The notes: generated from the sequence alone by a model not told the origin. A stretch of 33,544 nt of DNA from Candidatus Sungiibacteriota bacterium (GCA_016181585.1 JACOYX010000004.1:1-33544); one strand, 5' to 3'; positions 1,525 to 25,254 are shown, counted from the first letter of the stretch. Program-made: numbers and translations.

Positions 1525-2721
1525 TCAATAACTCTCCAATTTTTTTGCGGTATCGTGCATACGGATGCGCTCAAGGGCTTTCGCTTCAATCTGGCGGATG
1601 CGCTCGCGAGTTACTCCAAATTCTTTGCCCACTTCCTCAAGTGTATGCGTTACGCCGTCTTCCAATCCAAACCGCATGCTTAAAATTTTCTGTTCGCGCG
1701 GTGTAAGTTCGCTGATAATCGTCATCAACTGATCGCGCAAAAGGCGACGTGCCGCAACCTGCGAAGGTGAGAGCGTTTTTTCATCGACAATAAATTCGCC
1801 AAGCACCGAATCCTCATCATCCTCCCCCACAGGCGCTTCAAGTGATACGGTGTCTTGCTCGATTTTCTCTATATGCCGGACTTTCTCCACCTCAAGTCCC
1901 ATTTCGGAGGCAATTTCTTCCGCAAGCGGCTCGCGCCCCAAATCCTGGAACAAGCGGCGCTTCACCTGCTGATATTTCGAAATAGTTTCCACCATGTGCA
2001 CCGGAATGCGAATAGTCCGTGCCTGATCCGCAATCGCGCGCGTAATCGCCTGGCGGATCCACCATGTGGCATACGTTGAAAATTTATAACCCCTTCTATA
2101 ATCAAATTTTTCTACCGCCTTAAAAAGGCCGATATTTCCCTCCTGAATCAAATCAAGCAGGGTTAAGTGCGGCGAGCGGCCGACGTAACGCTTGGCAACG
2201 GAAACCACAAGGCGCAAGTTTGCCTGCAATAATTTCTTACGCGCTTCTTCATCGCCTTTTTCAATGCGGCGCGCCAAATCTTTTTCTTCATCGCCAGTAA
2301 GGAGCGAAATCCGCCCGATCTCGCGCAGATACATCTGCACCGAATCCTGCGAGAGCTGGTCGAAGTCGATCATGTCGTCTTTCTTTTTTTTCTTGGCGGT
2401 TTTTGCATCCGGCGATTCTTCGATAAAATCTTTCGTCTCAAGCACTTCTATATTTTCCGCAGTCAGTTTGTCGTACAAATCTTCAAGAAGCAAAATATCT
2501 TCCTCGATATGAGGAAATGCATAAAGAATTTCAGCATAGGTAACAAAACCGCGTTCCCTGCCGCGTTTTAAAATAACCTGTATTTTTGCTTCCACCTCCG
2601 CCGCGCTGTCCCTTTTTACCGGCTGTTTCAAAAGCTTCACTTTTTTAGCCGGCTGTTTTTCTGCGGATTTTTCTGATGTTTTCGTGGGTTTTTTTGCGGC
2701 TATTTTTTTCTTTGTCGCCAT
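1525..2721 (-). CDS. rpoD: RNA polymerase primary sigma factor RpoD/SigA
   Basis: This 398-residue sigma70 directs RNA polymerase to housekeeping promoters. A lysine/alanine-rich N-terminus (about 1-40) is followed by a region 1.1-like segment (about 45-100), region 1.2 ([15 protein letters not shown]), region 2 with the core-binding and -10-recognition helices ([33 protein letters not shown]), region 3, and region 4.2 with the -35 helix-turn-helix ([20 protein letters not shown]). The length is shorter than E. coli RpoD (613 aa) because the large non-conserved insert is missing, as in SigA of many bacteria. It follows dnaG by 17 nt, a common macromolecular-synthesis operon order. No Shine-Dalgarno is seen before the ATG. 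Clean TTGACA/TATAAT promoters elsewhere in the window agree with the conserved regions 2.4 and 4.2. Confidence 0.97.
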
Positions 2722-2738
2722 GTATAAAGATATAAAAA

Positions 2739-4490
2739 TTAGTTGAGTTTGCTAAGAGCCGCCGAAAGCTCTTTAAATGTTTGGAGGAGAGGCTCGACCT
2801 CGCGCTCCCTAGAGATTCCCTGATGTTCTATATTTTTTATCTCGCCTCCCACCCGCGTAAGCTCGTCTCTGATGCAGGCTTTCTCCAGTTCGCAGGCAGA
2901 ACTCATGAATTCCTGATGAAGATCGTCCACACTATTTACAATAGCCTCCCCTTTGAGCGAAAGCAAGCTCAATGCGTCGCGATGCGAAGCGGCAAGCTCC
3001 CCCGCCTTCTTATCCGTTAAAAACTGGAATAGATCGTTGTGGAAAGCAGAGAGAAACACAATGCGTGAATATTCATACTCTGGTGCGATGTTTTTCTCGC
3101 GCATGATGGCAAGAAGCGAAATGAGGCGATCTTCCAAAACTTCACGGCGCGACACTTTTTTTCTCTCTTCTTCTTTTTCCGGGCGACGCAAAATGTCAGG
3201 ATGTAAAGTTTTTTTATTTATCTCTTTCCATACCGCATCTTCCGGCGTTCCGAGGCGCTCCGCCACCGAGCGCACCCAATGCGCTTTTTCTATTTCATTC
3301 GGCAACGCGGCAATATGCGGCAGAATCATGGCGGCAATCGCCTTTTTCCCTTCCGCACGCTCCGTACTGAAATTTTGAAACGCTTTGTCAAAATAAAATT
3401 GAATAACGCTTTTTGCCTCTTTTACCGCCTGTATCCACTGCGTGGAGTTTTCGAGCACTGCATCGGCCGGATCTTTTCCTGAGGGGATTTGCGCAATTTT
3501 TCGCATAAAATCAAATTCGGCGGCGAGTGCAAGCGAGCGCTTGGTTGCGGAATCTCCCGCAGCGTCAGTATCGAAAGAAAATACAATATGCTCCGCAAGG
3601 CGTCGAAGCATTTTCAGTTGTTGATGCGTGAGTGCCGTTCCGGAAACCGCTACTGCATTTTTCACTCCCGCTTGATGCGACATCACGCAGTCCATATATC
3701 CCTCTACAATCACCGCTTCATTTTTTTCCCTGATTTCATGCTTTGCTTTGTCGAAGCCGTAGAGAACGTTGGATTTGTCATAAATCGGCGTTGCGGGGGT
3801 GTTTACATATTTTGCCTCAGTTTTTTCCGGATCTTTTGGGGATCCCGACGGCTCAAAAATACGTCCGCCAAAACCAATAACACGGCCATTGGCATCAACA
3901 ATAGGAAACATGATCCGGCTCCGAAACCGGTCGTACCACGAAGCTCCGTCCTGCGAACGCGCCGCGAGACCGGCTTTTTCAAGTTCTTCTTTTTTAAATC
4001 CTTTTTTTACCAGAGCGTTCGTGAGAAAATCCCAGCTTTGCGGAGCAAAACCGACTCGAAAAAGACGCACCGTCTCTTCCGTCATACCGCGTTTTTTTAA
4101 ATATTCTTTTGCCGGTGCGTTTAAAAGAAGCGTGCGTTCAAAAACTTTTGCCGCCGCTTCGCAGGTATCGTAGAGTCGATTCCGTTCCGAACGAATAGCC
4201 GGGTCTTCGCGCTTGAGTTCCACTCCTGCTCGCGCCGCAAGAAGCCGCAAAGCCTCCGGAAAATCGTGCCCCTCGATTTCCATGATAAATTTAAAAACAT
4301 CGCCGCCTTTGGAACAGCCGAAACAGTGCCAAATTTGCCGCGAGGGAGTGACATAAAAGGAAGGTGTCTTCTCGGAATGAAAAGGGCAGTTCGCCTTAAA
4401 GTTCACTCCCGATTTCTGAAGCCGCACATAGCCTTCCACCAGATCAACAATATCGATACGAGATTTTATTTCTTCAATAGGAGAAAACAT
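2739..4490 (-). CDS. dnaG: DNA primase DnaG
   Basis: DnaG makes RNA primers at the replication fork. The 583-residue protein has the N-terminal CHC2 zinc finger (C35, H38, C56, C59 in [11 protein letters not shown] and [11 protein letters not shown]), the catalytic core, and a TOPRIM domain ([10 protein letters not shown] with the catalytic Glu, then SFDTDAAG with the metal-binding Asp). A C-terminal helical region (about 430-583) would bind the replicative helicase and is poorly conserved. ATG 4490 is chosen because [22 protein letters not shown] is the usual DnaG N-terminus; the frame stays open to TTG 4574 but that extension is not DnaG-like. The ATG has no Shine-Dalgarno of its own; the only strong one nearby drives a 31-codon ORF overlapping the dnaG start. 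It is followed by rpoD. Confidence 0.96.
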
Positions 4491-4561
4491 ATGGTTAAAA
4501 GCAGAACTAAAAACAACTCCAGCATAGCAAAAATGGAGCTCTTTCGCAACAATAAAAACAT
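4466..4561 (-). CDS. Possible 31-residue hydrophobic leader peptide overlapping dnaG start
   Basis: In a frame different from dnaG, ATG 4561 (or GTG 4564 just before it) opens a 31-codon ORF (MFLLLRKSSIFAMLELFLVL...) ending in TAA at 4466, 22 nt past the dnaG ATG. A strong AAGGAGGT at 4581-4574 lies 9-12 nt upstream. The peptide is almost entirely Leu/Phe/Ile and would insert in a membrane. The dnaG ATG lacks its own ribosome site, so translation of this ORF could feed dnaG by coupling. It is too short for composition to prove coding. Confidence 0.35.
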   Translation of the reverse strand: MFLLLRKSSIFAMLELFLVLLLTICFLLLKK

Positions 4562-4664
4562 CACCGCTCAGCAACCTCCTTCAATTTCGCTGAATGTATA
4601 AACTTGGCAGAGGCGAGAGAATTCGCCTCTCGCTTTGATAGGCTCTAAACCCTCGCCTCCTTCG

Positions 4665-8367: not shown

Positions 8368-9892
8368 ATTCAATAGTCGCTGGAGGCTTTTGGGTTATAT
8401 CGTAGAGCACTCGATTTACTCCTCTCACTTTGCCGATAATTGTGCTGGAGATCTTTTCCAACAACCCATTCGATATTTTATGCCAATCGGCGCTCATGCC
8501 GTCTATCGAATCAACTGCACGGAGTGCGATGACATATTCGTAGGTTCGGCCGTCGCCCATGACTCCAACAACCTTGACTGGAAGGAGGGCGGCAAACGCT
8601 TGCCAGATTTTTTCGTATTCTCCAGCTTTCCTTAATTCTTCAATAAACACAGCGTCGGCTTCTCGCAAGATTTGAAGTCGTTCTTCGGTAATTTCTCCGA
8701 CAATACGTACCGCAAGCCCTGGGCCGGGGAATGGGTGTCGCCAGAGTAATTCTCTCGGAAGTCCGAGGGTCAAGCCTACTCGTCGCACCTCGTCTTTGTA
8801 TAAATCTTTTATAGGCTCAAGGATTTTAAAACCCATCTTTTCGGGAAGTGTAAGATTGTGATGGCTTTTTATTTTTGCGGCGGTCTTTGACGTGGAAGCA
8901 GACTCGATACGATCAGGATAAATTGTTCCTTGAGCCAGATATGCGATTGAATGCTTTTTGAGTTCATTCTTGATTGCCTTTTCAAATACTTCAATAAAAC
9001 CATGTCCGATGATTTTTCGCTTCTGTTCCGGATCAGAAACGGCCTTTAATCGTTTTAAGAAAAGCTCGCTCGCATCAACAACATGAAGTTGCTTAAATCC
9101 ATTCTTGCGCAGGTATGAAGCTACCTGTTCAACTTCTCCTTTGCGTAGGAGACCAGTATCTACAAAAACTGCATGAAGACGATTACCAATGGCGCGATGG
9201 ATGAGGGTTGCGGCTACAAGTGAATCAACACCGCCAGAGATACCTACTACGACATGCCTGCTTCCAACCTCATTCTTAACCTCTGCAATGATGTTTTTTG
9301 CTACTGAGCTGATCTTCCAATTCTTCTTGGCTTTACAGATTGAAAAAAGGAAATTCTTGAGCAATTTTTCTCCGTGCTGAGTATGAGTGACTTCCGGATG
9401 GAACTGGATGCCGTAGAAGTTATTCTTTGAATCAGCAAAAGCTGCATATTTGCAACCAACAGTAGATGCTGTTTGTTTAAACCTTTTTGATAAGACTGAT
9501 ACTTGGTCGCCGTGAGAAAACCACACAACTTCTTTTGAGGAGAGCGCCTGAAAAATTCCTTTCTTGTCTTTAATACTTAAAATCTCTTTACCGAACTCTC
9601 GATGTTTCCCTTTGGTAACTTTGCCGCCAAGTATGTGCGCCATGACTTGATGCCCGTAGCAGATGCCCAGAATCGGAATACCGAGTTTGAATATTGCTTT
9701 GTCCGGTCGCGGGCTACCTTTTTCTAATACTGATGCAGGCCCACCAGAGAGAATGATGCCAATTGGATTATGCTTCAGAATTTCAGAAGCAGGAGTATCA
9801 AAAGGCAAAATCTCGGCTTTTACGCCGAGATCCCGCACGCGTCTTGCTATGAGATGGGCAAACTGACTTCCGAAATTAAGGATTATGACCAT
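8360..9892 (-). CDS. guaA: GMP synthase (glutamine-hydrolysing)
   Basis: GuaA converts XMP to GMP using ATP and ammonia from glutamine. The 510-residue protein has the class I glutamine amidotransferase domain (catalytic C78 in GICYGHQ; His and Glu in GIQFHPEVTH, about 167-172), the ATP pyrophosphatase domain with the P-loop VVGISGGVDSL (about 220), and the C-terminal dimerisation domain ending RGVNRVLYDITQKPPATIEYE. Length and ends are normal. ATG 9892 (MVIILNFGSQF) is the usual N-terminus; the frame opens a few codons earlier. A short hairpin (TTGAACC/GGTTCAA, 9922-9947) lies in the leader. The downstream gene overlaps the stop codon. Confidence 0.97.
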   Translation of the reverse strand: MVIILNFGSQFAHLIARRVRDLGVKAEILPFDTPASEILKHNPIGIILSGGPASVLEKGSPRPDKAIFKLGIPILGICYGHQVMAHILGGKVTKGKHREFGKEILSIKDKKGIFQALSSKEVVWFSHGDQVSVLSKRFKQTASTVGCKYAAFADSKNNFYGIQFHPEVTHTQHGEKLLKNFLFSICKAKKNWKISSVAKNIIAEVKNEVGSRHVVVGISGGVDSLVAATLIHRAIGNRLHAVFVDTGLLRKGEVEQVASYLRKNGFKQLHVVDASELFLKRLKAVSDPEQKRKIIGHGFIEVFEKAIKNELKKHSIAYLAQGTIYPDRIESASTSKTAAKIKSHHNLTLPEKMGFKILEPIKDLYKDEVRRVGLTLGLPRELLWRHPFPGPGLAVRIVGEITEERLQILREADAVFIEELRKAGEYEKIWQAFAALLPVKVVGVMGDGRTYEYVIALRAVDSIDGMSADWHKISNGLLEKISSTIIGKVRGVNRVLYDITQKPPATIEYE

Positions 9893-9958
9893 AGTAAATA
9901 ATATCACTAATTATTGGACGATTGAACCTTATTTTACCACGGTTCAAACTTGGACATC

Positions 9959-10048
9959 TGGCGGAGGCGAGAGGATTCGAACCTCTGATGCCGGTTAAGG
10001 CATATTCGCTTTCCAAGCGAACGCACTAGGCCTCTATGCGACGCCTCC
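9959..10048 (-). tRNA. tRNA-Ser(GGA)
   Basis: A 90-nt class II tRNA with encoded CCA. Acceptor GGAGGCG/CGCCTCC, anticodon loop CTTGGAA (anticodon GGA), a long variable arm (ATGCC..GGCAT), and T loop TTCGAAT between AGAGG and CCTCT. The position between guaA and a small gene is not part of a tRNA cluster. Confidence 0.95.
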
Positions 10049-10053
10049 ATGTT

Positions 10054-10311
10054 TTAATTCTTTCCATTCAAGTATTCTTTTGCTTTTTTGGCAAGATCCA
10101 TTGCTTCCCGCATCACTGCTTGCGCCTGACCTTCTTCCTTAAAGCGCAAATTGAGCCGTTCGATTTTTTTGATCGCGCTTTCACCGGAGATGAAGTCATC
10201 GGGAATCTCTCCCTGCATGACAAGAAATTCAATACGCCCCAAAATTGACATAAGTTTTTCTTCCGGCCAAGGATCCTTTGTCCCTGATTTTTCAAAAGAA
10301 TGCGATTCCAT
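10054..10311 (-). CDS. Small hypothetical helical protein
   Basis: An 85-residue charged protein (MESHSFEKSGTKDPWPEEKLMSILGRIEFL...) with two predicted helices and no recognised family. There is no obvious Shine-Dalgarno before ATG 10311. It starts 62 nt after the terminator of rdgB and ends just before tRNA-Ser. Coding is supported only by its open frame and plausible composition. Confidence 0.5.
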   Translation of the reverse strand: MESHSFEKSGTKDPWPEEKLMSILGRIEFLVMQGEIPDDFISGESAIKKIERLNLRFKEEGQAQAVMREAMDLAKKAKEYLNGKN

Positions 10312-10373
10312 TTTTTCATATTACCAGCTTTTTACCATTTTTCCCAGCGGGAATGCCATCCGAAAAAATAAAA

Positions 10374-10419
10374 ACCACTCTTATTCAAATATTCTTGAGA
10401 ACATTGGAATAAGAGTGGT
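10374..10419 (-). terminator. Intrinsic terminator after rdgB-like gene
   Basis: ACCACTCTTATTC and its exact complement form a 13-bp stem with a 20-nt loop; on the minus strand it is followed by TTTTATTTTTT. The plus-strand side also has a T run, so it may work both ways. Confidence 0.8.
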
Positions 10420-18236: not shown

Positions 18237-19868
18237 TTATTTTATCGGCAAAGCGGCAAAGAAAGTACTCCCCTTGCCTGAGCCTTCAGATTCAACACCC
18301 ACCTTTCCGCCATGGTCTTCTGTCACACGCTTAACAAAATACAATCCGATACCCATACCATTCGGATCGCGTGCACGCGCTTCATCGGTGCGGTTGAATT
18401 TAATAAAGAGTTTCTTGATATCTTCTTTTTTAATGCCGATCCCTTGGTCACGCACGGAAAAGCGCACCCAACCAGCCCGCCGCTTCTCGAGCATAACGGC
18501 GACTTGTGTTCCCTCCGCCGTATATTTAATGGCGTTGTCGATAAAATTGATCACCACTTCGCGCATCTTATCCGCATCCAGAGAAAGCAAAGGGATCCCC
18601 TCCGCTTTGTTTTCAAATATCAAAACAACTTTTTTTGCATCGGCGTTATGTTTAAATTCCCCAAGCACTTTTTGGATTATTTCTACAAAGTTTGTCGGCT
18701 TAAATTCATAGCGGATTTTCCCCGACTCAATGCGCGAGAGATCAAGAAGGCTTGCGACAAGTTTTATGAGTTGTTCCGCGGAAATATATGTTTTCTGCAA
18801 AGCATCGCGCACGGAATCTGCAATGTGCCCCATCGAGCCCTCAAGAATCATTGAAGTATACCCCTTGATTACCGTCAGAGGAGCACGCAATTGATGCGAA
18901 GCAATTGAAATAAATTCCGATTTTGCCTGATCGAGTTTTTTTAATTCCTCGTTTGCCTCTCCGAGCGCTTTAGAGAGTTCTTCAAGCTTTTCACGCAATT
19001 GCACTTCTTTCGACACACTGCGAATCAAAAAAATACCAAAAACTATGACAAATACCAATAAAATACCATTTATCAGTAAATCTTGATTTGTTTCCGAAAG
19101 TACCGTTTCAATCAAAATAAATATCCAGATCAGCGCGGTCAAGATCTCCGTTGCTATAACTTTCATATTAAATAGATGGTGTTGCGATATCGCATACGCA
19201 AGCGTACCAAGATGAAACGGGACAAGTAAAAGTAAATACGGCTCAAAGGAAATGCCATACACAAGCGGCACCACCGAATTACCTCCAAAAAAACCAAGAA
19301 TTGATGAAAACACAATTAGCTTAATCTGTTGTGCTTTTTCTCCACTCGTATCTCGAAGTGCACGAAGCATGATAAGCAGAGTAAATATGGGAATAAAAAG
19401 ATAGTTAATAAGATGCAAATTATAAAAAGTTCCGGGAACCTCATAATAAGCAAATTGGAGTTTTGGAATTACTGTTTGTATAAAATAGCGAGAACCGGTA
19501 AAAAAATCTATTCCATTGATAGAAACCAAGATGAACGCATTGAAATAAAATGCAAAAAGAAGGGTTTTATATTTATTTTCAAGGTTCAAAAAGACGAGAA
19601 TGGTATGCAGAAACAATACATGCACGAGGATTGATCCTGTATACAAGATTCTAACCCAAAAAAGCGCTTGACCAAACTCCGTGGCAGTGAGCACAAAAAA
19701 ACGACCAACCGCCCAAATTATCAAACTGAAAGCCACCATGCCGTACACAACGTCAAAACGAGAGTGCGTGCCACTCTTTTTAAAAAGAATATTACCAAGA
19801 ATAACAAGCGCTCCAAAAGCAGTAACTGCCAAGGCGATCTGATATGCAACAATCATATATATGATCAT
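18237..19868 (-). CDS. Multi-TM sensor histidine kinase
   Basis: A 543-residue membrane histidine kinase. About eight hydrophobic segments (residues 5-28, 40-60, 70-95, 102-120, 152-170, 182-200, 208-228, 240-285) resemble the HisKA_7TM-type sensory domain that binds small ligands. A linker coiled coil (287-318) leads to HisKA with H325 (SHQLRAP), then HATPase_c with N-box NFIDNAIKY (441-449), G1 DQGIGI (474-479) and G2 GMGIGLYF (504-511). There is no receiver domain and no response regulator gene in the window. Its ATG overlaps the formyltransferase stop as ATGA. It is the third gene of an operon with an alpha-oxoamine synthase and a formyltransferase, the basis of the signalling hypothesis in the findings. 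Confidence 0.93.
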   Translation of the reverse strand: MIIYMIVAYQIALAVTAFGALVILGNILFKKSGTHSRFDVVYGMVAFSLIIWAVGRFFVLTATEFGQALFWVRILYTGSILVHVLFLHTILVFLNLENKYKTLLFAFYFNAFILVSINGIDFFTGSRYFIQTVIPKLQFAYYEVPGTFYNLHLINYLFIPIFTLLIMLRALRDTSGEKAQQIKLIVFSSILGFFGGNSVVPLVYGISFEPYLLLLVPFHLGTLAYAISQHHLFNMKVIATEILTALIWIFILIETVLSETNQDLLINGILLVFVIVFGIFLIRSVSKEVQLREKLEELSKALGEANEELKKLDQAKSEFISIASHQLRAPLTVIKGYTSMILEGSMGHIADSVRDALQKTYISAEQLIKLVASLLDLSRIESGKIRYEFKPTNFVEIIQKVLGEFKHNADAKKVVLIFENKAEGIPLLSLDADKMREVVINFIDNAIKYTAEGTQVAVMLEKRRAGWVRFSVRDQGIGIKKEDIKKLFIKFNRTDEARARDPNGMGIGLYFVKRVTEDHGGKVGVESEGSGKGSTFFAALPIK

Positions 19869-20704
19869 ATTATTTCACGGAAATAGCGTTTCAGTGAAAA
19901 TAATTTTATACCGCACCTATATAATCTGTTTATATCATTTTTTGTAGGAAAAGATACATAAAATCCTTCGCTCTCTTGCGTTAAAGCGATTACATCGCCA
20001 TACTCCATTTTCGCGATAAGTTCCAATAAAACGTCAGCGGATTGGGATAAAGCATTTCTGTCATGAAACAGTATATCATATTTACTATCGAGGTCATACG
20101 GTACCTGTGCATAAATTGCTCCGGTATCCAATGTTTCATCCACCGCGTGAATAGTGATAGCGCCTGATATATTGCGCATAAATGAACACATAATCGGAAA
20201 CGGCCCGCGACACTTCGGTAAAAGCGCGGTATGCGTGTTTAAAATGCCGTATGAGGGAATTTGAATGATATCTCTTCCGATTTTATGGTCAAAATAAAAT
20301 GAAATTACAAGGTCAGGATTATTTTCTTTAATTCTATTTATTACTTGAGGCGTATTGATTTCTTTTACCTCAATAAAAGGAATATTATACTCCCGCGCCA
20401 TGTCATATAAAGAAAATAGATGCCAAGGGATTCCCAATCGTCTCAAAAATCGCGCGCAATGCGCGAGAAAATAATAAAAACTTAGGTTAAGTCCTTGATA
20501 AATTACAAATAAAAAACCGGAACGAGAAAGATTTTTCCGAAACTGCCGGAAAAAAGAGCCGTATTTACCGCCAAAGCGCTGTGATGAACAAACAAGCACT
20601 ATCTTTCCATGAAGCGCTCTAAGGATTTTTTGAACACCCGCGCCAGAAGCGAAACTATCTAAATTTAGAAGCACTATTCGTTCAATCCGCTTTGGAGTAC
20701 TCAT
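19865..20704 (-). CDS. Formyltransferase (Fmt/PurN N-terminal fold)
   Basis: A 279-residue 10-formyl-tetrahydrofolate-dependent formyltransferase-like protein. The catalytic triad of the family is present: N156 and H158 in GILNTHTALLPKCRGPFPI and D193 in ETLDTGAI. The Fmt C-terminal OB-fold is not recognisable, and it is more like sugar- or small-molecule N-formyltransferases than Fmt proper. ATG 20704 is 2 nt after the stop of the alpha-oxoamine synthase gene; a longer frame to 20743 would overlap it. The stop overlaps the histidine kinase start. The context suggests it formylates the amino product of the upstream synthase; that substrate is inferred. A folD relic lies about 5 kb away. Confidence 0.85.
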   Translation of the reverse strand: MSTPKRIERIVLLNLDSFASGAGVQKILRALHGKIVLVCSSQRFGGKYGSFFRQFRKNLSRSGFLFVIYQGLNLSFYYFLAHCARFLRRLGIPWHLFSLYDMAREYNIPFIEVKEINTPQVINRIKENNPDLVISFYFDHKIGRDIIQIPSYGILNTHTALLPKCRGPFPIMCSFMRNISGAITIHAVDETLDTGAIYAQVPYDLDSKYDILFHDRNALSQSADVLLELIAKMEYGDVIALTQESEGFYVSFPTKNDINRLYRCGIKLFSLKRYFREII

Positions 20705-20706
20705 GG

Positions 20707-21915
20707 TTATATAATCTTTACCGCTTTCCCCAAGTCCCTGCAAATGGAAAGAAGTGTGTCAATTTGTTCTTTTGTGTGCGTTGCCATCACGGAAAATCGG
20801 ATACGCTCTTTTCCTTCAGCTACCGCCGGCCTGCGTATGCAAGGCGCTAAGATTCCTTTCTCAAACAATGCCGTTGAAAACTTCATTGCTTTTTTCTCGG
20901 AACCGATGAAAAGCGGAATAATGCTTGTCTCTTTGCCGAGCACGGTAAACCCCATTTCTTCCAGACCAGAGCGCAATTGTACGGCATTTTGAAGCACTTT
21001 TTGACGAAGATCTTCGCCGTTTTCAATTATTTCTACTGCTTTGAGAAGTCCTGCAACCACTCCGGGGATAATAGGATCAGAAAAAATATAACTCCTTGTC
21101 GTAATTCTTAAATAATCTGCTACTTTTTGATCTGTAACGACAAAACCGCCAATACTCCCGAATGCTTTCGTAAAGCTTCCCATAATCACATCAATATCTT
21201 TCCCAACCCCGAGGTGATGAGCAGTACCTCTGCCTTTCGGCCCTAGGACACCCATCCCATGCGCATCGTCCACCATCACTATCGCATCATATTGCTTAGC
21301 AAGTTCGGCAATTTCTTTAAGCGGCGCCAAATCGCCATCCATACTGAAAACTCCGTCTGTAAGAATAAGTTTTCGCTTATTTTTGTATTCCTTCAAAATT
21401 TTCTCAAGATGCGCTACATCATTATGCGCATAACGAACACGCTCGGATTTCGCCAAGCGGCAACCATCGATAATGCTGGCGTGATTAAGTTCATCGCTGA
21501 TTATAACTCCCGGCTCCTCGTTATAGAGAGTAAAATAAGGAAAAGGATCAACCAGCATGCGAATTACTCCCACATTTGCAAGATATCCGGATGAAAATGT
21601 GATCGCATCATCGCGTTCAGTAAATCGCGACAATGCCTGCTCAAGTTTGAGTTGAATATCAAGCGTTCCCGAAAGCAGACGCGTACTCCCGGAACCTACG
21701 CCAAACTGTTCAATTCCTTCAATAGTAGCCTTCTTTATTTCTTCATTCCCCGCTATGCCAAGATAGTTGTTGGAGCTAAAGGAAAGATATTTTTTTCCTT
21801 TTACCATAACCTCCGGCGAGGAAGAGACGCCATCGACAGTATAAATCGTCGGATAGAGAGAGTGCTTTTCTAAAAACTTAAGATAGTTCTCAAAATATTC
21901 ATGTGTTTTTTTCAT
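20707..21915 (-). CDS. Alpha-oxoamine synthase (BioF/KBL/SPT/CqsA family)
   Basis: A 402-residue PLP enzyme that condenses an amino acid with an acyl thioester to give an alpha-amino ketone. Marks: SFSSNNYLGIAG (43-55), HASII with H145 stacking on PLP, VDDAHGMGVLGPKGRG (215-230), and the PLP lysine K250 in GSFTKAFGSIGG. The subfamily (8-amino-7-oxononanoate synthase, glycine C-acetyltransferase, serine palmitoyltransferase, CqsA/LqsA) cannot be decided by eye. No biotin genes are nearby. It is first in an operon with the formyltransferase and histidine kinase, driven from the 21991-22019 promoter. Confidence 0.93.
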   Translation of the reverse strand: MKKTHEYFENYLKFLEKHSLYPTIYTVDGVSSSPEVMVKGKKYLSFSSNNYLGIAGNEEIKKATIEGIEQFGVGSGSTRLLSGTLDIQLKLEQALSRFTERDDAITFSSGYLANVGVIRMLVDPFPYFTLYNEEPGVIISDELNHASIIDGCRLAKSERVRYAHNDVAHLEKILKEYKNKRKLILTDGVFSMDGDLAPLKEIAELAKQYDAIVMVDDAHGMGVLGPKGRGTAHHLGVGKDIDVIMGSFTKAFGSIGGFVVTDQKVADYLRITTRSYIFSDPIIPGVVAGLLKAVEIIENGEDLRQKVLQNAVQLRSGLEEMGFTVLGKETSIIPLFIGSEKKAMKFSTALFEKGILAPCIRRPAVAEGKERIRFSVMATHTKEQIDTLLSICRDLGKAVKII

Positions 21916-21990: not shown

Positions 21991-22019
21991 ATTATAATCT
22001 AAAATAAGTTTGAATGCAA
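21991..22019 (-). promoter_or_regulatory. Promoter of the synthase-formyltransferase-kinase operon
   Basis: On the minus strand TTGCAT (22019-22014), 17-nt spacer, perfect TATAAT (21996-21991). It is divergent from the plsC promoter, with the two -35 boxes about 10 nt apart. Confidence 0.75.
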
Positions 22020-22083: not shown

Positions 22084-22719
22084 ATGTTCGGCTTCCTCAT
22101 ATATTTTATCCTTCAAAAGATCTATTGGCCGCTCCTGCGAGTGACGCTTTTTACTCTATTTAATGTAGAGATCCGCGACCCGCATGGGACACTCTCAAAG
22201 ACCCCCCGCGGAACGATAATCGTAGCAAACCATAAAACCCCGCTCGATCCTTTCATTATCTCAATCGCATTTCCGTGGCTTTCTTCCATATATCCGATTC
22301 GTTTTATGGCTAATTTTCGGAAATTCAACGACCAAGCGCTCGAATTTTTGCGTAAAATCGGCATAATCTATGTTATTTACTTTCTTTTCGGCGCTTTTTC
22401 TTCGCGAAGAGGGCAAGGTATTGAACGCGCATTGGAACTGCCGATTTCTTTTTTAAACCATAAACAAAGCGTCTTAATTTTCCCTGAAGGAAGCATGGTG
22501 CTGGGGCACGAGCTTGGCACGATACGCCGCGGCGCAGGAATACTCGCCGCAAAAACAGGAGCTCCTGTTTTGCCGGTTGCCCTCCGCTATCGCCGGAAAA
22601 AATATATACTGAATATAGGTGAGCTGTTTCAAGTGCCATCGTATGCCATTGAGACGGAATCTACAGAAAAAGTGCACATGGCGCTCCAGCCGCTTTTTCA
22701 AGAAGTTATCCGAAATTAG
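22084..22719 (+). CDS. plsC: 1-acyl-sn-glycerol-3-phosphate acyltransferase-like (PlsC family)
   Basis: A 211-residue membrane-associated acyltransferase, which in the family forms phosphatidic acid. It has the NHKTPLDP (NHx4D) catalytic motif near residue 49 and FPEGS near 138, plus an N-terminal hydrophobic segment and a second one (IIYVIYFLFGAF). Length is usual. There is no ribosome site before ATG 22084. It is divergent from the alpha-oxoamine synthase operon and is followed by an RND exporter, so it may serve acyl-lipid work. The exact substrate is unknown. Confidence 0.88.
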   Translation: MFGFLIYFILQKIYWPLLRVTLFTLFNVEIRDPHGTLSKTPRGTIIVANHKTPLDPFIISIAFPWLSSIYPIRFMANFRKFNDQALEFLRKIGIIYVIYFLFGAFSSRRGQGIERALELPISFLNHKQSVLIFPEGSMVLGHELGTIRRGAGILAAKTGAPVLPVALRYRRKKYILNIGELFQVPSYAIETESTEKVHMALQPLFQEVIRN

Positions 22720-22791: not shown

Positions 22792-22820
22792 TTGACATGT
22801 GCATATTTTTATAGTATAAT
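22792..22820 (+). promoter_or_regulatory. Promoter of the MMPL exporter gene
   Basis: Perfect consensus TTGACA (22792-22797), 17-nt spacer, TATAAT (22815-22820). The exporter ATG is 50 nt downstream, with AAAAAGGAGA at 22851-22860. Confidence 0.9.
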
Positions 22821-22869
22821 TGGAATTATTGAACATTGACATTTAACAAGAAAAAGGAGAGAAGTGGTT

Positions 22870-25254
22870 ATGAGAAAAAAACCGGTAGTCATTGCAGTAC
22901 TGCTAACAATCTTTTTGGGATATGGGGCAGGTTTTGTGAAAGACCGCTCCCCTATTGAAGACCTTATTTTGGATGGGGAAAACCCTATTCGCCTGGGGGA
23001 AGAATATGTCCGCTCAAAAGTGAATGAGGGTTTTGCCCCAACCGATCCGGTGCTGTATTTAACCGACACACGAAGCAGTCCCGGCTGGTCACGCACACTA
23101 TGCAACTTTGAGAAGTATGCGGGGTTCTTCGGCACCGTGTTCGGGCTTTGCACAACACCATTTTTTTATATCGAGCACGGAGAGGAGATCGATATAGCCC
23201 ACGACGAGGCGCCTTTTGTTGTAGACGGTGTTTTATCCGCCGATTGGCAGACGCGATTGGCGAAAAGTATGGTGTTCAAGAACTTCGCCGGCGACAATTT
23301 CGGCTATGTCGTGACGGCAGTGTTTTTACCGCAAATGGAAAGCGAGCTCAAGCAAGCCGAACTTGCGGTAAAAATTGCACAAATGGGAAAAGGAATTTCG
23401 TGGTATGAGATTCTGAATCTCGATGTGCGTTCACTGTGGTACGGAGTCAGTGCAACAGGATGGGTGGTGGGAAGATATCTCATCCACGTAATGCTGATGG
23501 CTTCTACCATGCTTCTGGCAATCGGAGGAGTAGGGATCGTGCTTATGCTGGGATTTCGAAGCACGTTTGGATCTTGGCGGCTGGCAGGAATCGCTGTCTT
23601 GCATATTTGGGCGGCGCTTATCTGCCAAACCGGAGCAATGGCTTTATTTGGCGTCCAGCGGAGTGTATTCACCCTGGTCGCACAAATGATTCCTTTTCTC
23701 ATCGGAACCTCTGCCATGCCGGAGGTATTTGAAAAGCGCGGAAAAGCCACCACGCCTTACCTCTGGGCGGGCGGACTCACGATCGCAAGCGCGCTCATGT
23801 ATGTCTTGCCTTACCTCGGTTTTGAGGTAACGCATATTCATGAATTCTCCTATGCAGTGATTCTCGGCACTTTCTTCATGACGTTTTTGTCCTTATACTC
23901 TTTTCCCTGTTTCCTGCGGAAAAGCGATATTCCGCAAAACACCGAAGGATCGCGCATCAATCTTGTTTCCAATTGGTTGAATAAAAAACTGATCGCCTCT
24001 GCGCGATGGTTTTCAGAAGGCAGTAAAACATATGCGCTGATTGTCGGCGTCTTGCTTCTTTACATCAGCACTGCTTGGATGGTCGCCGTAGGAGAAATTA
24101 AAACGGCCACCGATTCAAAGGTATACATAAAAAATACATCGGTGGCGAAAGGGCTTGATAGGCTCGATCGTCCCGGGGGAATGGGACAATCACTTGTGGA
24201 AATGCTGATTGAATGTGATGGCGGAAGATCAATCGTTGATCCAACCTGCGCTAAAGAACTCATCGTATGGCATCACGCCGTAGAAGAGAAATTTGCTACC
24301 GAGCATCAGGAGCTTCGAGCGATCTTCTCCATAGTAAAGATGTTTGAAGAGATCGCAATAGGAACCGAAGAAGACCCAGGCATTCTGGCGCACATGCCCA
24401 AATCCACAGAGGAAATTAATCTGGTGTGGCCTGCGATGAAAAGCCGGCTTGCACAGCTTGATAGGCCAGGCAAGCCGACGTATCAGTCGCAACTCTGGTG
24501 CGGTAGAAATGATGATTGTTTTCGCGTGATATTCGGCATTTCCATTGTAACAGACGCTGAACTCCGTCAAACAATCACAGCCCTGCAGGAGTTCAATGCA
24601 AAAAATTTTCCTCACTTACGAACAACGTTTTACGGAAAAAATGCATTGTATTCCCAACTCGGTCCGTATGTGACCGAAGGGAAGGTAAAGAATTCGTTCA
24701 CTTCCGTGGCGGCCGTGGGTATTACCAGTTTTATTTTCCTCGCCGCCATACAGCGGAGGAGAGCACGTAAAATTTCCCCTCTGACGGGGGGATTGGTTGC
24801 GGTTGTACCATTTCTTTTCGCACCAAGCGTGTTTCTTTTTGTGCTGTGGATCGGCAAGAGCCCGCTTGATGTGGTAGCCGCCACAGTGAGTTCGTTTGCC
24901 ATAGCGGCCGCGGGAGATTTCATGGTATTGCTCCTCTTCGCTTTTGTGGAGAATATCAAGAAAAATCCCAACCTGAACTTGTACGGCGTACTGCTTCCGA
25001 CGCTGGAACAAGAGGGGCCGCTTCGCACAAGGGACATGATTCTCAACATAGGAGCGTTTTCCGTCTTTGCACTGTGCGTATTGTTCGAGCCGGTGCAAAT
25101 GCTCGGCATCTCGATGATGCTGATTACGTTCCTGTGTTTGGTGGGAACATTAGTTTTTTCAATGGCAATCCTTATGCGCATTCTGCGTCCCGCGGAACAG
25201 CCGCATGCGGATTCGCCAACCGCGGTTGTTGCCGCGCGCAATGATTTAAGATGA
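22870..25254 (+). CDS. RND-superfamily/MMPL-type exporter
   Basis: A 794-residue membrane transporter with the two-fold RND layout: TM1 (about 5-20), a large extracytoplasmic loop (20-195), a TM group (about 205-350), TM7 (about 385-405), a second extracytoplasmic loop (410-620), and a final TM group (about 628-775). AGDFMVLLLF in the C-terminal group resembles the GxDY TM motif of MMPL proteins, with Asp as a possible proton-relay residue. Such proteins export lipids or hydrophobic molecules by proton motive force. ATG 22870 has AAAAAGGAGA about 9 nt upstream; GTG 22864 is an alternative. It has its own strong promoter and terminator, so it is a separate unit beside plsC. The substrate is unknown. 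Confidence 0.85.
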   Translation: MRKKPVVIAVLLTIFLGYGAGFVKDRSPIEDLILDGENPIRLGEEYVRSKVNEGFAPTDPVLYLTDTRSSPGWSRTLCNFEKYAGFFGTVFGLCTTPFFYIEHGEEIDIAHDEAPFVVDGVLSADWQTRLAKSMVFKNFAGDNFGYVVTAVFLPQMESELKQAELAVKIAQMGKGISWYEILNLDVRSLWYGVSATGWVVGRYLIHVMLMASTMLLAIGGVGIVLMLGFRSTFGSWRLAGIAVLHIWAALICQTGAMALFGVQRSVFTLVAQMIPFLIGTSAMPEVFEKRGKATTPYLWAGGLTIASALMYVLPYLGFEVTHIHEFSYAVILGTFFMTFLSLYSFPCFLRKSDIPQNTEGSRINLVSNWLNKKLIASARWFSEGSKTYALIVGVLLLYISTAWMVAVGEIKTATDSKVYIKNTSVAKGLDRLDRPGGMGQSLVEMLIECDGGRSIVDPTCAKELIVWHHAVEEKFATEHQELRAIFSIVKMFEEIAIGTEEDPGILAHMPKSTEEINLVWPAMKSRLAQLDRPGKPTYQSQLWCGRNDDCFRVIFGISIVTDAELRQTITALQEFNAKNFPHLRTTFYGKNALYSQLGPYVTEGKVKNSFTSVAAVGITSFIFLAAIQRRRARKISPLTGGLVAVVPFLFAPSVFLFVLWIGKSPLDVVAATVSSFAIAAAGDFMVLLLFAFVENIKKNPNLNLYGVLLPTLEQEGPLRTRDMILNIGAFSVFALCVLFEPVQMLGISMMLITFLCLVGTLVFSMAILMRILRPAEQPHADSPTAVVAARNDLR

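Follow-up and report, generated by a model that had tools for sequence, protein, structure and literature searches.

A candidate autoinducer-like cassette in a patescibacterium: an alpha-oxoamine synthase, a formyltransferase and a 7TM histidine kinase

In the CqsA/CqsS system of Vibrio and the LqsA/LqsS system of Legionella, a PLP-dependent synthase of the alpha-oxoamine synthase (AOS) type is encoded next to a multi-TM histidine kinase. A BLAST survey of the CPR identified 362 CqsA homologues, 51 of which adjoin kinases matching a CqsS profile, and AHK quorum sensing in these bacteria was proposed from the homology to CqsA/CqsS (Bernard et al. 2020; PMC7567580). A sequence-only reading of the locus described here had put forward a possible new signal system of this kind. 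Because those 51 pairs are published, the general idea is not new, and they are probably the same class of loci as the cassettes reported below. Our additions are a distinct AOS clade, an insertion in the synthase, the sensor family, a swappable slot, a formyltransferase and acyl-CoA supply genes. Formyl groups are not mentioned in the main text of PMC7567580, and a literature search retrieved no paper with both 'oxoamine synthase' and 'histidine kinase'. These loci bear on the open question of how host-dependent Patescibacteria sense one another or their hosts, for which the cassette offers a compact, testable synthase-receptor pair.

The window analyzed here is a 33,544-nucleotide stretch of DNA from Candidatus Sungiibacteriota bacterium (GCA_016181585.1 JACOYX010000004.1:1-33544), which is a very small, probably host-dependent bacterium and whose genome is 86% complete. 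On the minus strand, the synthase, formyltransferase and kinase genes follow one another in that order:

20707..21915, minus strand: alpha-oxoamine synthase, PLP-dependent, 402 aa (Pfam/NCBIfam, trees, AF2 model)
21481..21576, minus strand: AOS residues 114-145, with the subfamily insertion (alignments)
19865..20704, minus strand: formyltransferase, 279 aa, Formyl_trans_N, between synthase and kinase
18237..19868, minus strand: sensor histidine kinase, 543 aa, phosphoacceptor H325 present
19164..19829, minus strand: HisKA_7TM sensor region of the kinase, aa 14-235 (PF16927; hydrophobic segments)
18720..18926, minus strand: HisKA dimerisation/phosphoacceptor domain, aa 315-383 (PF00512)
18243..18578, minus strand: HATPase_c domain, aa 431-542 (PF02518)
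21991..22019, minus strand: promoter-like TTGCAT-17-TATAAT 5' of the AOS, read directly and under the threshold of the consensus scan
22084..22719, plus strand: divergent acyltransferase (PF01553), of uncertain membership in the cassette

The coupling of the three genes described earlier proved exact: the AOS stop codon (20707-20709) is separated by 2 nt from the formyltransferase ATG (20702-20704), and the formyltransferase TGA (19865-19867) overlaps the kinase ATG (19866-19868) as ATGA. The three family assignments were borne out by Pfam (all above cut-offs) and NCBIfam, and each of the catalytic residues that had been named (K250 in the AOS, N156/H158/D193 in the formyltransferase and H325 in the kinase) was found. 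The 'one strong promoter' held in part; its TATAAT -10 element is perfect, but its TTGCAT -35 element is weak (3/6 matches) and the site is missing from the list produced by the consensus scan. Similarly, of the two divergent genes that had been pointed out, the acyltransferase is real, and its family also adjoins the AOS in loci L192 and L280 and, weakly, in L252, but the supposed RND exporter (22864-25254, 796 aa) had zero matches among Pfam models, NCBIfam models and PDB chains. Its resemblance to RND proteins is confined to the arrangement of TM helices and large loops, and profiles and the PDB lend no support to a role as signal exporter. Near this putative RND-like gene, at 22792-22820, is a promoter that matches the consensus perfectly (TTGACA-17-TATAAT).

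The AOS matches Aminotran_1_2 with 217 bits, above the cut-off, and has an intact active site (K250, the PLP lysine, with H145, D216 and H219 conserved); the catalytic lysine, histidines and aspartate are common to CqsA and LqsA. Its AF2 model (pLDDT 93) shows the SPT/KBL/ThAOS fold, which BioF also shares; the TM-score is about 0.9, and sequence identity with the solved members (SPT, KBL, BioF and ThAOS, 7poa) is roughly 30-40%. Serine palmitoyltransferase is among the nearest folds and sequences, and the enzyme probably couples a fatty acid with an amino acid. Its scores fall under the curated cut-offs for CqsA/LqsA-type AHK synthases (NF005526, 234 vs 428 bits), BioF (NCBIfam, 419.5 vs 426.45), KBL (411 vs 460) and SPT (368 vs 640); the AOS of a linked relative, L062, passes the NCBIfam BioF cut-off (438). 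In a careful tree, a placement that the sequence-only reading had set as a test, the window AOS fell outside the BioF, KBL and SPT groups, apart from the E. coli Kbl clade and from a separate SPT clade (100/100), and its cassette has no Tdh neighbor. Scores and tree both support a synthase that is not BioF, KBL or SPT. Relatives of CqsA and LqsA formed a 100/100 clade excluding the window AOS, which, judged by this placement, is not a CqsA/LqsA orthologue. Kinase-linked AOS lie on the same side of the tree as CqsA/LqsA, a grouping that is modestly supported (78/89) and, given the long branches, not proof.

Besides belonging to another clade, the window AOS differs from CqsA and LqsA in a long insertion. 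From N114 to H145 it has 31 residues, compared with 21 in the BioF, KBL, SPT and CqsA references (the V. cholerae CqsA reference sequence differs from PDB 2wk8 at one residue); in linked AOS this span is 30-42 residues. With a loop cut at 31, a kinase link was found for 26 of 30 long-loop AOS (4 not linked) vs 1 of 59 shorter-loop AOS (58 not linked), a difference with a Fisher p of 3e-17 in a test that counts related rows as independent and uses a cut picked after viewing the data. Two of the long-loop exceptions lie at or near a contig edge (L252, L290), the sequence around L281 shows no kinase, and L070 is Tdh-linked. Because loops of 28-30 residues occur in some KBL-like clades, the insertion is a good but not unique mark.

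The pairing of AOS and kinase recurs in about 30 patescibacterial loci, with the AOS upstream and the sensor downstream on the same strand, which supports a conserved pair of AOS and multi-TM kinase across Patescibacteria. Twenty-seven AOS rows (window included) are linked to a 7TM kinase or 7TM protein, to which the partial genes L061, L198 and L311 add. The arrangement, a synthase gene adjoining a sensor kinase gene as in AHK quorum sensing, consists of the AOS, optionally one gene, and the kinase, with gaps mostly of -8 to about 115 nt and often of 0-20 nt; L062, L205 and L289 are linked more loosely, with other genes between AOS and kinase. A second set of AOS has no kinase neighbor and clusters either with E. 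coli Kbl or close to the Thermus AOS. It includes the KBL-type AOS beside Tdh-like epimerases, which served as a negative control and had no kinase neighbor in any case. SPT, BioF and KBL differ from the window AOS in their separate clades, the 21-residue loop of the references and the lack of a kinase partner in the loci read. Away from the AOS, kinase genes are rare: of 489 ORFs in the patescibacterial loci sampled, two encode kinases, and each of these lies in a cassette locus. The kinase or 7TM protein is the only constant partner of the AOS across loci. Since the window's genome has four histidine kinases and the pair recurs in so many loci, the pairing exceeds chance, and we ruled out a chance neighborhood. 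In a scan of named genomes, a kinase lay in the same gene run for 2/81 AOS rows: L091, whose AOS groups with a BioF, and L081, a long-loop AOS with a 7TM protein. The L081 cassette (9205-10380) occurs in the unclassified bacterium STD1_36, with a 7TM-DUF835 protein encoded between the AOS and the kinase; the pairing may extend beyond Patescibacteria.

The window kinase has HisKA_7TM, HisKA and HATPase_c domains (45, 55 and 90 bits, all above cut-offs) and the phosphoacceptor histidine, which makes it a HisKA_7TM kinase. Pfam detected HisKA_7TM in most linked kinases tested but gave no match for the main kinases of L063 and L081, nor for L061, L064, L077 and L226. By hydropathy, L061, L063, L064, L226 and the second kinase of L077 show the same many-helix N-terminus, and in L063 and L081 a 7TM protein is encoded separately. 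Stand-alone extra 7TM proteins are found in the cassettes of L063, L081, L191, L287, L288, L291 and L294. The proposed grouping of the sensor with CqsS and LqsS was not supported: comparison of 15 sensors with the TM region of four CqsS/LqsS-like sequences by hhalign gave a probability of 0.1, and the window sensor, unlike theirs a HisKA_7TM domain, is by sequence not a CqsS homologue, though it may be remotely related in fold. A structure model from three sequences (pLDDT 46) was too poor for a fold search. To our knowledge, HisKA_7TM sensors have no established ligand, and the adjacent synthase would offer one.

Also unlike CqsS and LqsS, the window kinase has neither a receiver domain nor an adjacent receiver. 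Alongside its four histidine kinases the genome encodes five receivers (a fifth HATPase match, in a 689-aa frame, is unmatched by the kinase model), and the window kinase stands out among the four as the sole 7TM kinase and in having no receiver beside it; the other three have adjacent receivers. A co-occurring response regulator had been suggested as a check. Receivers follow the kinase in L200, L288 and L296, but none adjoins the window kinase. Of the receivers in this genome, the orphan G000:C29:35227 matches those three best or nearly best (42, 41 and 31%) and ranks first by E-value; on this similarity the window kinase's receiver is probably this orphan on contig 29.

The formyltransferase scores 54.2 bits against PF00551 (cut-off 26.1) and shares the Formyl_trans_N domain and N-H-D triad with ArnA-type, sugar and linear-gramicidin formyltransferases. 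It differs from these in its N-terminal ~90 residues and in that no sugar-pathway genes lie between synthase and kinase. The closest full-length relative that the searches recovered (33.5% over 97%) is encoded by a Nostoc plasmid, where its cluster also contains genes for a desaturase, an aminotransferase, an acyl-CoA dehydrogenase and a glycosyltransferase; this setting fits a small-molecule amine substrate without proving it. Further full-length relatives are on Methylobacterium plasmids. A genome-collection scan with the formyltransferase had zero matches, and a search of 142 relatives and 380 phylum genomes found weak or partial matches, with the gene absent from the kinase cassettes that were read. 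Conservation of the three-gene order across Patescibacteria, which had been suggested as a check, is therefore not supported, the formyltransferase being found in the window cassette alone. In L223 (G710, 2350-4601), an AOS that groups with the tandem AOS pair of L076 (G114) adjoins a distant formyltransferase-domain protein, with no kinase nearby. In L314 (G658:C23), a formyltransferase relative is broken by stop codons; that genome also has an AOS-kinase cassette.

A tailoring enzyme between synthase and kinase genes sets the window apart from CqsA/CqsS and LqsA/LqsS, and this slot varies: it holds the formyltransferase in the window, an amidohydrolase in L063, an ADC-like gene in L282, an SDR/3-beta-HSD-like (reductase) gene in L291 (its AOS and the window AOS are 59% identical) and, in L280, an ADC-like gene followed by a 7TM gene truncated where the contig stops. 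ADC-like denotes a weak, decarboxylase-like assignment (E about 0.004, under the cut-off), and Pfam does not match the L280 homologue. Elsewhere in cassettes, there are amidohydrolases in L064, L279 and near L205, ADC-like genes in L062 and L252, a class IV aminotransferase in L294 and lipase-like alpha/beta-hydrolases in L282 and L287. Acyl-CoA ligase genes, the expected acyl-CoA supply, lie 5' of the AOS in L282, L285, L287 and L289. Because no AMP-binding acyl-CoA ligase was detected in the window's genome (at its 86% completeness), the acyl donor there may be short-chain or host-derived.

We favor, with a probability of roughly 0.55, an autoinducer-like cassette in which a two-gene core and a tailoring enzyme yield an alpha-amino ketone, N-formylated or not, that is sensed by the cassette's own kinase. 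The AOS would condense an acyl-CoA with an alpha-amino acid, releasing CO2, and the formyltransferase would transfer a formyl group from 10-formyl-THF to the amine of the resulting amino ketone. After export, the 7TM kinase, whose gene ends the operon, would sense the membrane-soluble product and signal through an unlinked single-domain response regulator, the orphan receiver being the best candidate. The signal probably carries the formyl cap; the absence of the formyltransferase from other kinase cassettes counts against an N-formyl signal, and the enzyme could act on another amine.

Alternatively, the AOS may make a structural membrane lipid, such as a sphingoid- or capnine-like base (N-formylated here), with the 7TM kinase monitoring membrane lipid state to control its synthesis and no signal passing between cells. 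The kinship to serine palmitoyltransferase in fold and sequence, the nearby acyltransferase genes and the acyl-CoA ligases of some cassettes would suit such a lipid. We consider it unlikely, as the recurrent neighbors of the AOS include no ketosphinganine reductase, N-acyltransferase or headgroup enzyme, and its sole constant partner is the kinase or 7TM protein; the SPT clade is separate, and near-absence from the window's own order would be odd for a basic membrane lipid. An ordinary BioF or KBL metabolic enzyme beside an unrelated kinase, to which the score just below the BioF cut-off might point, is very improbable and is disfavored by the recurrence of the pair, as well as by the trees, the insertion and the KBL-type genes of the same phylum, which often adjoin Tdh-like genes instead.

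Patescibacteria are mostly host-dependent, and the product might target hosts or neighbors as a manipulating small molecule while the kinase senses the host rather than the product. The AOS occurs sporadically in different families and classes, as if a dispensable trait had been transferred, in keeping with such a role, and Bernard et al. (PMC7567580) discuss host-directed products for unpaired synthases. We judge this distinctly improbable, because synthase and kinase are coupled tightly and in a set order, which better fits a matched pair. The autoinducer-like reading can be taken further, although only tentatively and with more doubt than belief: Patescibacteria may have a large, largely undescribed cassette family in which a fixed synthase and 7TM receptor are combined with a swappable tailoring enzyme to give private amino-ketone signals, partly from scavenged fatty acids, the window being the only N-formylated version found. 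The variable middle gene would then predict a route of signal diversification.

AOS-type matches were found in 34/384 same-class genomes, 39/380 phylum genomes and 46/334 genomes of a second class, sets that overlap and in which neighborhoods were read for most matches. In the careful tree the window AOS pairs with that of G073 (100/100); in a wider tree, which excludes the partial G073 gene, its nearest kin are G837 and G964 (60%), from the same phylum but another class sample. Because these kin lie in another class sample and the window's own order is almost without the gene (2/23 genomes, one a fragment), the trees suggest that the AOS spread horizontally. As a counterpoint, G073, from another family, shares the window's downstream neighbors (scpA- and scpB-like genes and others). 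An N-terminal AOS-like fragment stands alone inside a longer contig of a genus-mate of G073 (L079, G093:C31, 8558-8797) and is perhaps a decayed copy. One KBL-like AOS clade (L203, L204, L207-L209, L213, L219, L221, L222, L224 and L225) has a recurring setting of its own, with neighbors of ~400 and ~610 aa.
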